A stretch of 64,000 bases of DNA, from NCBI RefSeq assembly GCF_947179015.1, contig NZ_CAMXCM010000005.1, positions 1 to 64,000 of the forward strand. The letters are read 5' to 3'. This DNA comes from Commensalibacter communis. GTDB taxonomy: Bacteria; Pseudomonadota; Alphaproteobacteria; Acetobacterales; Acetobacteraceae. This document shows, one piece after another, positions 1,553-13,536 of the stretch. Both the position numbers and the translations under genes were made by a program. How positions within the stretch are numbered: the first letter of the stretch is position 1; every line of letters starts with the position of its first letter. Below the pieces are notes generated by a model. It saw only the letters and a list, made by a program, of their open reading frames with translations. It ran no database searches and was not told the origin of the DNA.

Positions 1553-3388
1553 ATGCCCAAATATCGTTCACATACTTCTACTCAAGGTCGTAATATGGCT
1601 GGGGCTCGTGCATTATGGCGGGCAACGGGAATGAAAGATGGGGATTTTAACAAGCCTATTATTGCTGTGGTGAATTCTTTTACCCAGTTTGTGCCAGGTC
1701 ATGTTCATTTAAAGGATCTGGGTGATGTTGTTGCACGGGAAATTGAGGCAGCAGGCGGCGTTGCCAAGGAATTCAACACGATTGCTGTCGATGATGGGAT
1801 CGCGATGGGGCATGATGGTATGTTATATTCATTGCCTAGCCGCGAAATCATTGCTGATTCTGTTGAATATATGGTGAATGCACATTGTGCCGATGCGATG
1901 GTTTGTATTTCAAACTGCGATAAGATTACACCTGGTATGTTGATGGCTGCGATGCGTTTAAATATTCCAGTGATCTTTGTTTCTGGTGGTCCTATGGAGG
2001 CTGGAAAAAGTAATGTTTCAGATCGTAAGTTAGATTTGGTCGATGCGATGGTTGTCGCTGGGGATAATAGCGTTTCTGATGCACATGTTGCTGAATATGA
2101 ACGTTCTGCTTGCCCAACTTGTGGATCATGTTCTGGCATGTTTACAGCGAATTCCATGAATTGTTTGACTGAGGCTTTGGGATTATCTTTTCCTGGTAAC
2201 GGAACCATGCTAGCAACTCATAAAGACCGTGAGTTATTATTTAAACGTGCAGGAAGTCGTATAGTTGAATTATGTAGACAATATTATGAGCAGGGGGACG
2301 ATAGCATTTTACCCCGTTCAATTGCACAAATTGCTTCTTTTGAAAATGCTATGACATTGGATATTGCGATGGGTGGATCAACAAATACCATTTTGCATTT
2401 ATTAGCCATTGCACAAGAAGGTGAAGTTCCATTTACTTTGGAAAATATCGATCGTTTATCTCGTCAAGTTCCACAGCTTTGCAAGGTGGCGCCCAACACT
2501 CAAAAATACCATATTGAAGACGTACATCGTGCAGGTGGAATTTTTTCTATCTTGGCTGAGTTGGCCAAAGGTGGTCTGATTGATACAACGGTAAAAACCA
2601 TTCATTTTGAAGTATTAGGTGAGGCGCTACGCCATTGGGATATTACAAGTAGTAAAGAGGAATCTGTTTTACAGTTTTATAAAGCAGCACCTGGTGGTGT
2701 TCCGACACAGCAAGCATTTAGTCAAGATAAGCGTTGGGAGAGCTTAGACACTGATCGTAAAGAGGGTTGTATTCGTAGCGTCGAGCATGCTTATTCTCAA
2801 GATGGTGGTCTTGCAGTCTTATACGGTAACATTGCCGAGGCTGGGTGTGTGGTGAAAACTGCAGGTGTGGATAAGTCTATCTTGACTTTTACAGGCAACG
2901 CCAAAGTGTTCGAAAGTCAAGATGCCTCTGTTGAAGCAATTTTAAGTGACCAAATCGAACCTGGTGATATTGTCATTATTCGTTATGAGGGGCCAAAAGG
3001 TGGGCCAGGTATGCAAGAAATGTTGTATCCCACTAGCTATTTGAAATCTAAAAATCTTGGCAAATTGTGTGCGTTATTAACCGATGGTCGTTTTTCAGGC
3101 GGAACCTCTGGGCTTTCGATTGGGCATGTATCCCCAGAAGCGGCATCTGGGGGAGCCATTGGGTTGGTTCGGGATGGAGATAAAATCATTATTGATATTC
3201 CTAATCGTTCTATTCAACTTGATATCTCTGACGCAGAGTTACAACAACGCCGTGCAGAGCAAGATCAAAAAGGTTGGAAGCCAGCGAAGCCTCGTGCTAG
3301 AAAAGTCAGTCTTGCGTTGAAAGCCTATGCCATGATGGCAACTAGTGCTGATAAAGGTGCGGTAAGAAATAAAGAGCTGTTTACGTAA
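1553..3388 (+). CDS. ilvD: Dihydroxy-acid dehydratase
   Basis: This enzyme dehydrates 2,3-dihydroxy-isovalerate and 2,3-dihydroxy-3-methylvalerate to the 2-oxoacids that precede valine, leucine and isoleucine. It is cytoplasmic and carries an Fe-S cluster. The length of 611 residues is close to the E. coli enzyme (616). The family signatures are present: [10 protein letters not shown], with Cys122, and [17 protein letters not shown], with Cys187, Cys190 and Cys193. The C-terminal swivel-type domain contains the [14 protein letters not shown] signature. The gene stands alone, ends in a strong hairpin, and no other ilv gene is in the window. Assignment is firm. Confidence 0.97.
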
Positions 3389-3397
3389 TAAAATAAA

Positions 3398-3428
3398 TAG
3401 CATAATTATATAAAATATAATTATGCTA
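3398..3428. terminator. Hairpin after ilvD
   Basis: A perfect 14-bp inverted repeat (3398-3411 with 3415-3428) with an AAA loop lies 10 bases after the ilvD stop. It lacks a clear run of T, so it may be a terminator or a 3'-end stabilising structure. Confidence 0.55.
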
Positions 3429-3474
3429 TAAAGTTTACGGAATAATTTCTTTTACAAAAGGAGGGTGATGGATA

Positions 3475-4641
3475 GTGTTAAATGAAAATGCTTCTTTTTT
3501 GCCAATTTTAGGTAATTTTAATGGTCCGTTTGCTTCAGATGGTCAATGTTATGATATGAGTCATAGCCCAGAACGCGTGTTACCGATGCCTATTACCGCA
3601 TACGATGCTCAACGATTTCAAGAGTTTGAATTGGGCTTAAGAGCTTATGATGTGAGAAGGATTATAAGAAATACTGCTGCTGTAGATGGAAAGGAGAGTG
3701 GAAAAGCCATCATGCAGGCTCGGACTTTAAAGATTTGCACCATTGAGAATGCTTATCTTGTTATAGCTCCTGAATTATATGGTGTTATTGTTCAAAATGA
3801 CTATCAGATTATTGGTCCTCCTTCCTGTTTTAGAAATCGTATAATTGATAGAGAGGGTTGTATAAAAAATATTCCATTTAGAGATAAATTGGATGATATT
3901 TTTGTAGGTTGCGATGCAGCCTCTACCAATTATTATCATTGGTTATTATATGCAATTTCAAAAACACAGTTTGCAAATTCTATATTGCCATCTGAAACGC
4001 AGTTAGTTCTTCCATCAAGAAGTAGTCTGTTTGAAAATAGACAGCCTGCATATAGTTTATCAACTTATGAACAAACACTTGCGCTGAGTGGTTTAAAAGA
4101 TCGCGTTACTTTATTAGATGTGGGTATTTATCCAGTTAAAAAGTTATCTTATTGTTGGCATATTCCAGATTTTAAGCCTGAGTTGTATTTGCTTTTTTCT
4201 GAAGTCTATTCTTTATTTGATAAATTTGATGTGCCTAATATGCCTGAATTACCAAAACGCATTTATATTAGCCGCGAAAAGGGGCACGATAGTAGAGTTA
4301 ATAATGAAGAAAAAGAAATAATAGAGCGTGTTTTACAAACCAAAGATATCCAAAAAATATGTTTAGAAGATATGGATTTTATTACGCAAGTTGCCCTTTT
4401 TAGACAGGCAGAATTTGTAATGGCTCCTCATGGTGCAGGTTTAGCAAATATGGTTTTTGCTCGCCCAGGAACGGCTTTGTTAGAATTTAACCGTCAATTT
4501 GAACAGCCCTATTTAAGAAATTGTTTTTATCTAATCACGGCTATGAAACAGCAACCCTATTGTTATTTTAATTTATCAAAAGATCAATTAACAGAGGATT
4601 ATTTGTTACAAGCAATTGATCGATTAAAGCCAAATTGGTGA
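3475..4641 (+). CDS. Glycosyltransferase family 61 protein
   Basis: This 388-residue protein belongs to the DUF563/GT61 family of glycosyltransferases. The diagnostic C-terminal part is present: PKRIYISREKG near residue 260, followed by MAPHGAGLANMVFARPGT near residues 320-340. The best start is GTG at 3475, nine bases after GGAGGG. An ATG at 3468 opens only a five-codon frame that ends inside the gene. No signal peptide or membrane segment is seen. Family members transfer sugars onto surface or extracellular polysaccharides. Donor and acceptor cannot be told here, and no other polysaccharide genes lie next to it. Confidence 0.8.
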   Translation: MLNENASFLPILGNFNGPFASDGQCYDMSHSPERVLPMPITAYDAQRFQEFELGLRAYDVRRIIRNTAAVDGKESGKAIMQARTLKICTIENAYLVIAPELYGVIVQNDYQIIGPPSCFRNRIIDREGCIKNIPFRDKLDDIFVGCDAASTNYYHWLLYAISKTQFANSILPSETQLVLPSRSSLFENRQPAYSLSTYEQTLALSGLKDRVTLLDVGIYPVKKLSYCWHIPDFKPELYLLFSEVYSLFDKFDVPNMPELPKRIYISREKGHDSRVNNEEKEIIERVLQTKDIQKICLEDMDFITQVALFRQAEFVMAPHGAGLANMVFARPGTALLEFNRQFEQPYLRNCFYLITAMKQQPYCYFNLSKDQLTEDYLLQAIDRLKPNW

Positions 4642-11616: not shown

Positions 11617-11859
11617 TAAATAATTTTAATAGTATTATAGGTTTTTTTACGAATACGCTATTTTCCTTTTGCAACACTTGGAAAATAATCATGAAAAATC
11701 ATGGCCAAAAGAAAATATATTAAAAAAATAGTGGTTTTTATATAAAGAACACTAAATTATTTTCTATTCTGATTGTTGAAGTGTATAAGGATTAGCAACA
11801 AATGTATTTATATGCAGTTTATATGTTTTATTGACTTTGTAATATTAAGGGGAAGATAA

Positions 11860-12522
11860 ATGAATTTTATGCAAACGACGTCGCATGATGCGATAATTTT
11901 AGATGATAATGATCCAGAAGAACCCGTAAATCCCTCAGAAAAAAATGAAAAGGAAGAAAATTCAGCCCCATCAAGTTCAGTATTGGAAAGCAAACTTTTT
12001 AAAGAGCGCAAAATTTTAATATTTGGTGAAGTTCATGACAAATTAGCCAAGGAAGTAACCGCGCGTCTGTTGGCTTTGGCATATGATTCTGATCGTCCAA
12101 TTGATGTTTATGTGAACTCACCTGGTGGTCATGTTGAAAGTGGCGATACCATTCACGATATGATTCGCTTTGTTGATGCGCATGCGCCTGTGAATATGAT
12201 TGGTACAGGATGGGTTGCATCTGCTGGCGCGTTGATTTTTGCTGCAGGTCACAAAGAACGTCGTTTCTGTTTGCCTAACACGCGTTTTTTACTCCATCAA
12301 CCTATGGGTGGGGTCAGAGGTCCAGCGACCGATATTGATATTGAAGCAAGAGAAATTATTAAAATGCGTGAGCGTTTAAACTATATTTTTGCCAAGGAAA
12401 CTGGTCATTCTTATGAAAAAATTGCAAAAGATACAGACCGCAATTACTGGATGTCCGCAAAAGAGGCAATTGAATATGGATTAGTCAGCAAAATTATTCA
12501 TACATGGTCTGACTTAAAATAA
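11860..12522 (+). CDS. clpP: ClpP-family protease subunit, Asn-triad paralogue
   Basis: This is a ClpP-type serine protease subunit of 220 residues. Ser121 (VASAGA) and His146 (LLHQPMGG) match the catalytic Ser and His, and NSPGG (86-90) is the substrate-strand signature. At the third triad position the usual TDRD reads TDRN, so Asn195 replaces Asp. A similar Asn occurs in Listeria ClpP1, which works in mixed rings with ClpP2. The first 45 residues are acidic and unlike a normal propeptide. No clpX or clpA is adjacent. The gene is followed 24 bases on by a di-iron protein gene. I infer a second ClpP type, either a specialised or a hetero-oligomeric subunit. Confidence 0.85.
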
Positions 12523-12546: not shown

Positions 12547-13536
12547 ATGTCTAATTTAGAAGCGATTTACACGCAGTTACCTGAAAATTTGCACGATTTA
12601 CCTCAGCCTAAATCTGATAAAGAGTTAGAGGAAATGAATTATCGAGTACGCCATTGGATGAGTGCTATTCCTGGTTCGATAAAAATCGGTAGTAAAGAGC
12701 ACAAGCAGGCAATGTGTCAGATGTTTCGTGAGACATTTAACCCCTATAGACCTACTTTTATGGATTGGCCAAAATTAAGCGAAGGAGAAATTAATCGGTT
12801 AAAAAGTCTGCCGATCTGGGATATTGCTGTTCACACAGAAGGTAAAGCACGCCTTAGAATGGCAGCTTTTGTAAATGAATTGCTTGATCCCGAAGTGGCA
12901 GATGCCATCGCCAGAAATGCTTGGGAAGAAAACCGCCATAAAGAAGTTCTTGAGGATATGGTCAAATTTTATGGTATTCCCCTAGCTCAAGAGCAGGAAT
13001 ACCAAGCACCCAAAGATGCAGAATGGGCCTATATGGTCACAGGATTTAGCGAATGTTGGGATAGTTTTTTTGCTTTTGGTTTATTTGCTATTGCTGAAAA
13101 GTCTGGTTTTTTTACAAAAGAGCTTATTGAAACGTTTGAACCCGTAATGCAAGAAGAGTGTCGTCATATCTTGCTTTTTGCGAATTGGCTTGCTTGGCAT
13201 CGTAAAAATATGCCTTTATTAAAAAGGGCAAAATTCGAAGTTAAACTATGGGCCGTCCATGCATTTTTAATTTATGAACGTATGGGGTTAATTAGAGATG
13301 TCGACGTTGATGGACAGGAATATTACGAAGATAATAACTTTACCATTAATGGTGTTGCTGAGTTGGGAAAAGAAAAGACGACACTTAAAGAATTTTTAAA
13401 ATTATGTCTTGCTGAAAACGATCGTCGTTTTGCCGGCTATGATCGTCGCTTGGTCAGACCCAAGACAGCACCATTTTTAACAAAATTACTATTACGTATT
13501 TTGCCAGAAAAGATAAAAAACAAACAAATTGGTTGA
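12547..13536 (+). CDS. Ferritin-like di-iron carboxylate protein, function unknown
   Basis: The 329-residue soluble protein shows the ligand pattern of a four-helix di-iron protein: Glu98, the pair Glu128-x-x-His131 (WEENRH), Glu169, and Glu204-x-x-His207 (QEECRH). The spacings of 30 and 35 residues within each half fit paired helices. I do not recognise a named family, so an oxygenase, oxidase or storage role is open. It sits 24 bases after the clpP paralogue on the same strand with GAGGGAG before the ATG, and a terminator closes the pair, so the two are probably co-expressed. Confidence 0.6.
   Translation: MSNLEAIYTQLPENLHDLPQPKSDKELEEMNYRVRHWMSAIPGSIKIGSKEHKQAMCQMFRETFNPYRPTFMDWPKLSEGEINRLKSLPIWDIAVHTEGKARLRMAAFVNELLDPEVADAIARNAWEENRHKEVLEDMVKFYGIPLAQEQEYQAPKDAEWAYMVTGFSECWDSFFAFGLFAIAEKSGFFTKELIETFEPVMQEECRHILLFANWLAWHRKNMPLLKRAKFEVKLWAVHAFLIYERMGLIRDVDVDGQEYYEDNNFTINGVAELGKEKTTLKEFLKLCLAENDRRFAGYDRRLVRPKTAPFLTKLLLRILPEKIKNKQIG

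Follow-up and report, generated by a model that had tools for sequence, protein, structure and literature searches.

We identified, at positions 11860..12522 (+) of a 64,000-nucleotide stretch of Commensalibacter communis DNA (hereafter the window), a clpP paralogue whose 220-aa product is assigned by open reading frame, profile searches and tree to the helper-type ClpPs. Judging from sequence comparisons, we put the probability at roughly 0.7 that this protein is the helper ring of a heteromeric ClpP, latent alone and working when paired with standard ClpP. The paralogue has an asparagine, Asn195, where the catalytic aspartate is expected, and across the aligned family this residue is coupled without exception to a glutamate of the handle helix, Glu162. 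The coupling is the new part of this analysis and had been overlooked in an earlier sequence-only reading of the same DNA, which had noted the asparagine and proposed the helper role.

The gene starts with an ATG at 11860, preceded by a Shine-Dalgarno-like AAGGGGAA that can be read from the sequence at 11848..11855 (+), and its product scores 218.5 bits against Pfam CLP_protease. The AlphaFold2 model of the paralogue (pLDDT 90.5) has the ClpP fold (MEROPS S14): Z was at least 8 for 1000 of the 1000 chains ranked by Foldseek, and the 50 listed were all ClpPs. VIA-align gave Z values of 29.3 to P. aeruginosa ClpP2 (7m1l), 29.2 to Listeria ClpP1 N165D (4jcr) and 28.1 to Listeria ClpP1 (4jcq); canonical ClpPs follow close behind the best matches, at 28.2 and lower, so the fold cannot tell a helper from a canonical ClpP. 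In an alignment to E. coli ClpP, residues Ser97, His122, Asp171 and Arg170 correspond to the nucleophile Ser121 (12220..12222), the catalytic His146 (12295..12297), Asn195 (codon AAT, 12442..12444) and the retained ring-ring sensor arginine Arg194 (12439..12441), all on the + strand, confirming the Ser121-His146-Asn195 triad that had been proposed.

Asn195 is real and not a sequence error. The earlier reading had allowed for a corrected sequence coding Asp; instead, we found Asn together with Glu162 in 65 of 65 family genomes carrying the paralogue (nine from the source genus) and in 80 of 80 Acetobacteraceae loci (the best 80 of at least 565), two sets that overlap in species, and this conservation across genomes rules out a sequencing error. 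The 207 rows scoring above 175 bits comprised 174 with Ser-His-Asn, 32 with Ser-His-Asp and 1 ended by a contig end; they include many repeats (148, 28 and 1 unique sequences, respectively), Acetobacteraceae are over-represented, and four of the 32 Ser-His-Asp rows (L152-L155) are canonical ClpPs, L152 and L155 by their place in the tree and L153 and L154 by 97% identity to L152. The Asn195 codon in the unique Asn rows is AAC in 79 and AAT in 71, indicating that the codon mutates yet keeps Asn, although Asp is one transition away. Across the core of the paralogue, comparison with seven congeners gave dN values of 0.016-0.102 and dS values of 0.9-2.8, five more distant pairs having no usable dS. 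The loss of the catalytic Asp could also mark a decaying or purely structural pseudo-ring without catalysis; with dN far lower than dS, and with Ser121, His146, Asn195 and Arg194 invariant in 41 of 41 Asn representatives, we regard this as very improbable.

To place the paralogue among known ClpPs, we combined sequence searches, phylogeny and family profiles. Its best matches in a PDB sequence search were Listeria ClpP1 (4jcq, 222 bits) and, as the next kind, P. aeruginosa ClpP2 (7m1l, 206 bits), with E. coli ClpP reaching ~160 bits. A tree of 74 representatives, built with column 195 omitted, splits 61 paralogue rows from 13 canonical rows with support of 100/100; Listeria ClpP1 lies inside the paralogue clade, beside a protein from another class of the source phylum (G566; 100/99), and inner branches are often weak (27 of 71 starred). 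The phylogeny with ClpP1 and ClpP2 thus places the paralogue in the Listeria ClpP1 clade, and the likeness to Listeria ClpP1 first noticed at one shared residue extends to the top PDB match and a common clade. The Listeria protein (L220) shares as much as 65% identity with Azospirillum proteins, and its place in the tree lies within proteobacterial rows, a pattern suggestive of transfer between phyla. Klebsiella pneumoniae plasmids (H26-H40) encode a ClpP 51.7% identical to the paralogue, and no phage relatives were found in the viral contigs searched with patterns from this single protein. Against family profiles, the paralogue stays below the cut-offs of two canonical ClpP models, NCBIfam TIGR00493 (177.5 of 308.6 bits) and PRK00277 (202.5 of 249 bits), and of the PRK14512 equivalog (211.4 against 251 bits). 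It exceeds the cut-off of the PRK12553 subfamily (282 against 228 bits), as does the canonical ClpP of its own genome (266.6 bits), so that this profile does not discriminate between the two kinds.

The source genome (2.58 Mb, 66 contigs) also encodes a standard ClpP with a Ser-His-Asp triad, at G000:C1:714156-714695 in the gene order tig-clpP-clpX-lon. The second, standard clpP that had been suggested to lie beside clpX is therefore present, between tig and clpX, and the paralogue is not the only clpP of its genome, a situation that would have spoken against a helper. A third, weak Pfam match (30 bits) falls in a 313-residue frame. Among 289 sampled genomes of the class, 35 carry the paralogue at more than 180 bits, and each of these 35 shows two or more ClpP matches at E <= 1e-20; among the matches listed, the place of the second ClpP is given for 19 of the 35, with canonical-type scores of 137-150 bits. 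At the level of the family, 59 of 150 sampled genomes carry the paralogue, 56 of the 59 with at least two ClpP matches. A renewed search found no canonical clpP in three paralogue-bearing family genomes (G585, G646 and G710). Because clpX is cut at the contig start in G585 and was likewise not found in G646 and G710, which share a genus code, assembly gaps are the likely cause, and likelier than the paralogue serving as the sole ClpP of these genomes.

Gene arrangements vary among the relatives. One Acetobacteraceae genome (G597, L200) has two helper clpP copies 13.5 kb apart (G597:C1:1002843-1003412 and 1016349-1016918), with equal score and equal identity to the paralogue at 11860-12522. In another genome of the same class (G537, L218), an Asp-type helper clpP at ~3048-3668 (-) and a standard clpP at ~3800-4492 (+) are divergent neighbours.

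The second clpP and the shared clade with Listeria ClpP1 support the helper-subunit reading at the level of sequence. On its own, Listeria ClpP1 assembles mainly into inactive heptamers, and it becomes active only together with ClpP2; its Asn selects the inactive heptamer, the Asn-to-Asp change yielding tetradecamers and activity (PMC5361862, excerpts). This agrees with the earlier statement that Listeria ClpP1 carries a comparable Asn and needs ClpP2 for full activity. P. aeruginosa ClpP2, of the same clade, forms no functional homotetradecamer (PMC9753991, excerpts) and has Asp; helper status is therefore independent of Asn, and we rejected Asn as its cause. For P. plecoglossicida ClpP1, which has a Ser-His-Pro triad, the third residue has been reported not to be the main cause of low activity (PMC12900304).

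We then compared the residue at position 195 with the remaining core columns. Glu162 (12343..12345, +), assigned to the handle helix by alignment and predicted model, accompanies Asn195 without exception: among 286 aligned ClpP rows, all 189 with Asn have this Glu and none of the 97 with Asp does. The residue pairs at 162/195 are Glu/Asn (189), Gln/Asp (81), His/Asp (14), Tyr/Asp (1) and Ala/Asp (1), and the 222 unique rows give 146, 60, 14, 1 and 1 in the same order. This sample covers genomes of the source phylum and Listeria through a plasmid-collection record, together with six of the plasmid hits. Position 162 is the sole one of 173 core columns in which the residue sets of Asn and Asp paralogue representatives are disjoint, with Glu in 41 of 41 Asn representatives and Gln (19) or Tyr (1) alongside Asp, and it carries 0.927 of the 0.927 bits on residue 195 (next column, 0.723). 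We found no paper on the Asn/Glu coupling in the openly licensed literature searched; the primary Listeria structure and Neisseria pH-switch papers lie beyond that scope and may discuss it.

Tracing both residues on the tree showed how often the pair has changed. With column 195 omitted, the Asn and Asp states of the paralogues require 2 changes, and with columns 195 and 162 omitted 3; neither a single Asn clade (p-AU 0.294) nor a single Asp clade (0.253) is rejected. We therefore set aside repeated independent loss of Asp, and the few changes together with the unrejected Asn clade point to Asn as an old, inherited state. On the tree without both columns, each site needs 3 changes. The count for the joint state equals that for either site alone, both in the best tree and in every one of the 200 bootstrap trees examined (3, 4 or 5 changes). 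This corresponds to ~3 joint changes, with 1 independent pair on starred branches. So few independent changes cannot establish a functional link on statistical grounds alone, and much of the coupling could be due to shared ancestry.

What the pairing might mean is suggested by the place of position 162, which aligns to E. coli His138 and to Neisseria His145 (in the N. gonorrhoeae sequence, with the numbering set to give triad residues S102 and H127; the Asp is then residue 178, matching the N. meningitidis paper). The E. coli Asp171 forms hydrogen bonds to His122 and, in an adjacent monomer of unspecified ring, to His138 (PMC12383707, excerpts). N. meningitidis His145, located in the handle helix, acts with a pKa of 7.4 as a pH switch between compact and extended states (PMC9035409, excerpts). 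As position 162 is a known contact of the catalytic Asp, the Asn clade carries the exchanged form, an amide in the triad and a carboxylate at the partner position. We tentatively propose that Glu162 provides, in trans, the acid that the triad lacks. The Listeria mutant, in which Asp stands beside Glu, gains activity, indicating that an Asp/Glu pair is possible and that Glu does not forbid Asp; the pair nevertheless occurs in 0 of 286 rows.

A simpler account has somewhat less than an even chance in our estimate: the protein would be a plain helper ring in which the effect of Asn is to impair the triad and promote the compact state, with Glu162 a mere lineage marker that has no catalytic role. 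S. aureus ClpP with the D172N change adopts a compact form in solution, and ADEP restores its activity (PMC9035409, excerpts); the small number of independent changes at 162/195, along with the unrejected single Asn clade, fits such a marker. It leaves aside that only column 162 of the 173 fully separates the Asn from the Asp paralogues and holds all the information on 195, and that this very position is the reported contact of the catalytic Asp (PMC12383707, excerpts).

Were the "adjacent monomer" of the E. coli contact part of the opposite ring, Glu162 would lie against a standard-ring Asp and not against Asn195. This geometry leads to another reading, in which Glu162 reaches that Asp across the equator and the mixed barrel has an Asp-Glu carboxyl pair that holds a proton and favours assembly in acid, which would suit acetic acid bacteria. 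In its favour are the behaviour of the homologous residue in Neisseria, the pH switch His145 (PMC9035409, excerpts), and the antiparallel packing of handle helices from opposing rings (PMC5225881, excerpts). We examined 20 standard ClpPs, 14 from Asn-type and 6 from Asp-type genomes, and all keep Asp; the partner residue is Gln in 11 and His in 3 of the former, compatible with such a code, against Gln in 1 and His in 5 of the latter, in a set that is small and closely related. For coupling of a helper with the standard ClpP of its own genome, an idea set aside, these 20 sequences are too few and too related. The ring of the E. coli contact is not given in the parts of the literature examined, we saw no pH data on any Asn-type ClpP in that literature, and our analyses gave no tie between the Asn clade and acid habitats; we consider this inter-ring arrangement unlikely.

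The N-terminus distinguishes the paralogue from canonical ClpP as well. An acidic tail (residues 1-41; 11860..11982, +) occupies the place of the axial-loop segment of canonical ClpP, and the loop itself is absent from the alignment. Residues 1-38 have no predicted secondary structure and are predicted to be disordered (block pLDDT 61-70), so the acidic extension described earlier as unlike normal ClpP holds up. Measured through residue 50, with start codons picked by a simple rule on which lengths and charges depend, N-termini have a median of 56 residues and a net charge of -7 in Acetobacteraceae-type rows (117 unique), 34.5 residues and -3.5 in other paralogues (40 unique), and 39 residues and -2 in canonical ClpPs (16 unique). 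Several of the E. coli ClpP positions that form the ClpX-docking pocket are polar in the paralogue: Val28, Phe49, Tyr60 and Met92 are replaced by Lys51, Ala72, Asp82 and Thr116, the last being Thr in 41 of 41 Asn representatives. Other pocket positions are still hydrophobic (Leu71, Tyr84, Phe104, Ile114, Phe136 and Leu138).

These features bear on whether the paralogue could instead be an independent protease that assembles into an active homotetradecamer and uses substrates or an ATPase of its own. In C. difficile, ClpP1 and ClpP2 each form a functional homotetradecamer (PMC9753991, excerpts), and the Asn/Glu pair would be self-consistent inside a homomer. With the axial loop lost, the docking pocket polar and the closest characterised relatives inactive alone (PMC5361862 and PMC9753991, excerpts), we rate such independence as improbable, if less so than a pseudo-ring without catalysis.

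In the latent helper ring that we favour, heptamers of the paralogue would be latent alone and would stack on a heptamer of the standard ClpP from the tig-clpP-clpX-lon locus to give a working barrel, a pairing that we infer for this organism from its sequences. The standard ClpP face, with its axial loop and docking pocket, would carry ClpX or ClpA, and the acidic tails would line the far pore. Across the subunit interface, Glu162 would supply a carboxylate, or its charge would be felt, and the active site would be complete only in an assembled, extended barrel with ordered handle helices, giving built-in latency. A review reports in a figure legend that Listeria ClpX binds either ring, ClpP1 or ClpP2, and in its text places ClpX on the ClpP2 heptamer (PMC9035409, excerpts); binding to either ring weakens the argument that the helper face cannot dock an ATPase. 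Extended to the whole clade, from Listeria to acetic acid bacteria, the proposal, equally speculative, is that the catalytic carboxylate has left the third position of the triad and now resides on a neighbouring subunit, in its handle helix. The trans acid would then sit at the Neisseria pH-switch contact, and the enzyme would be active only in the correctly assembled barrel and might read pH differently.

Downstream, 24 bases from the paralogue on the same strand, lies a conserved neighbour (12547..13536, +) that encodes a 329-aa protein described from model and alignment as ferritin-like and helical, with EENRH and EECRH motifs. It follows the paralogue in 126 of 157 Acetobacteraceae-type loci, a set that includes the own genome, repeats and short contigs. 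No Pfam or NCBIfam family matched the 329-aa protein. Among 36 aligned homologues, EENRH is invariant and EECRH is invariant except for its Cys. The predicted model is of moderate confidence (pLDDT 79.1), and Foldseek linked it weakly to ribonucleotide reductase R2, with TM ~0.4 and a best E of 3e-3, no match reaching 1e-3. The protein is possibly diiron, as far as the model can indicate.

A published clpP knock-out probably concerns the helper rather than the standard gene. In K. xylinus E25, disruption of clpP gave cells 2.5 times longer that were stress-sensitive and produced cellulose more slowly; the gene, with a given length of 650 bp and a 25.56 kDa product, had been opened with BssHII (PMC12733265, excerpts). 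We found BssHII sites in 14 of 14 Komagataeibacter-group paralogue genes (13 Komagataeibacter and 1 Gluconacetobacter entanii; L078, L079, L089 and 11 more), against 5 of 13 standard clpP open frames (among L298-L300 and L307-L316) and 0 of the 3 in K. xylinus. With start codons chosen in this analysis, the predicted mass is 25.0-25.2 kDa for the paralogue (25.8-26.0 with six His) and 23.5-23.6 kDa for the standard protein (24.3-24.4). The 650-bp length is non-decisive, lying between the 675 bp of the paralogue and the 642 bp of standard clpP. On the basis of the BssHII sites and the protein mass, judged from related loci outside strain E25 itself, the knock-out probably hit the helper paralogue.

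Asn-type helper ClpPs are thus no Listeria curiosity: they are a conserved component of the acetic acid bacterial protease system, cellulose producers included. The papers examined on Listeria ClpP1, in the excerpts consulted, leave the mechanism of an active Asn triad unexplained, and the Asn/Glu coupling offers a concrete and cheap test in an organism that is harmless. The paralogue also allows testing how helper rings stay off until paired with a standard ring, and a trans-supplied acid, if true, would tie the activity of a serine protease strictly to its assembly by unusual means.

Among known systems, Listeria monocytogenes ClpP1 (4jcq; heterocomplexes 4ryf and 6sfx) is alike in clade, Ser-His-Asn triad, Glu at the handle position, absence of the axial loop and a standard ClpP partner in the same record. 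It is ~55% identical to the paralogue and has a short N-terminus where the paralogue has an acidic tail of ~40 residues, and the partner position of the standard ClpP is Ala in Listeria and Gln in the source genome. Pseudomonas aeruginosa ClpP2 (7m1l, 9ndj), a helper of the standard ClpP1 (PMC9753991, excerpts), shares clade and fold with the paralogue but has Tyr at the partner position beside its Asp in the triad. The Asp-type alphaproteobacterial paralogues, such as those of S. meliloti and R. leguminosarum, for which we saw no activity data in the literature searched, likewise share the clade and lack the axial loop, yet pair Asp with Gln where the paralogue pairs Asn with Glu. Canonical ClpP, both that of E. 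coli and the source genome's own tig-clpP-clpX-lon gene product, has the same fold, Ser, His and sensor Arg, whereas it retains the axial loop and a hydrophobic docking pocket and combines Asp with His or Gln.
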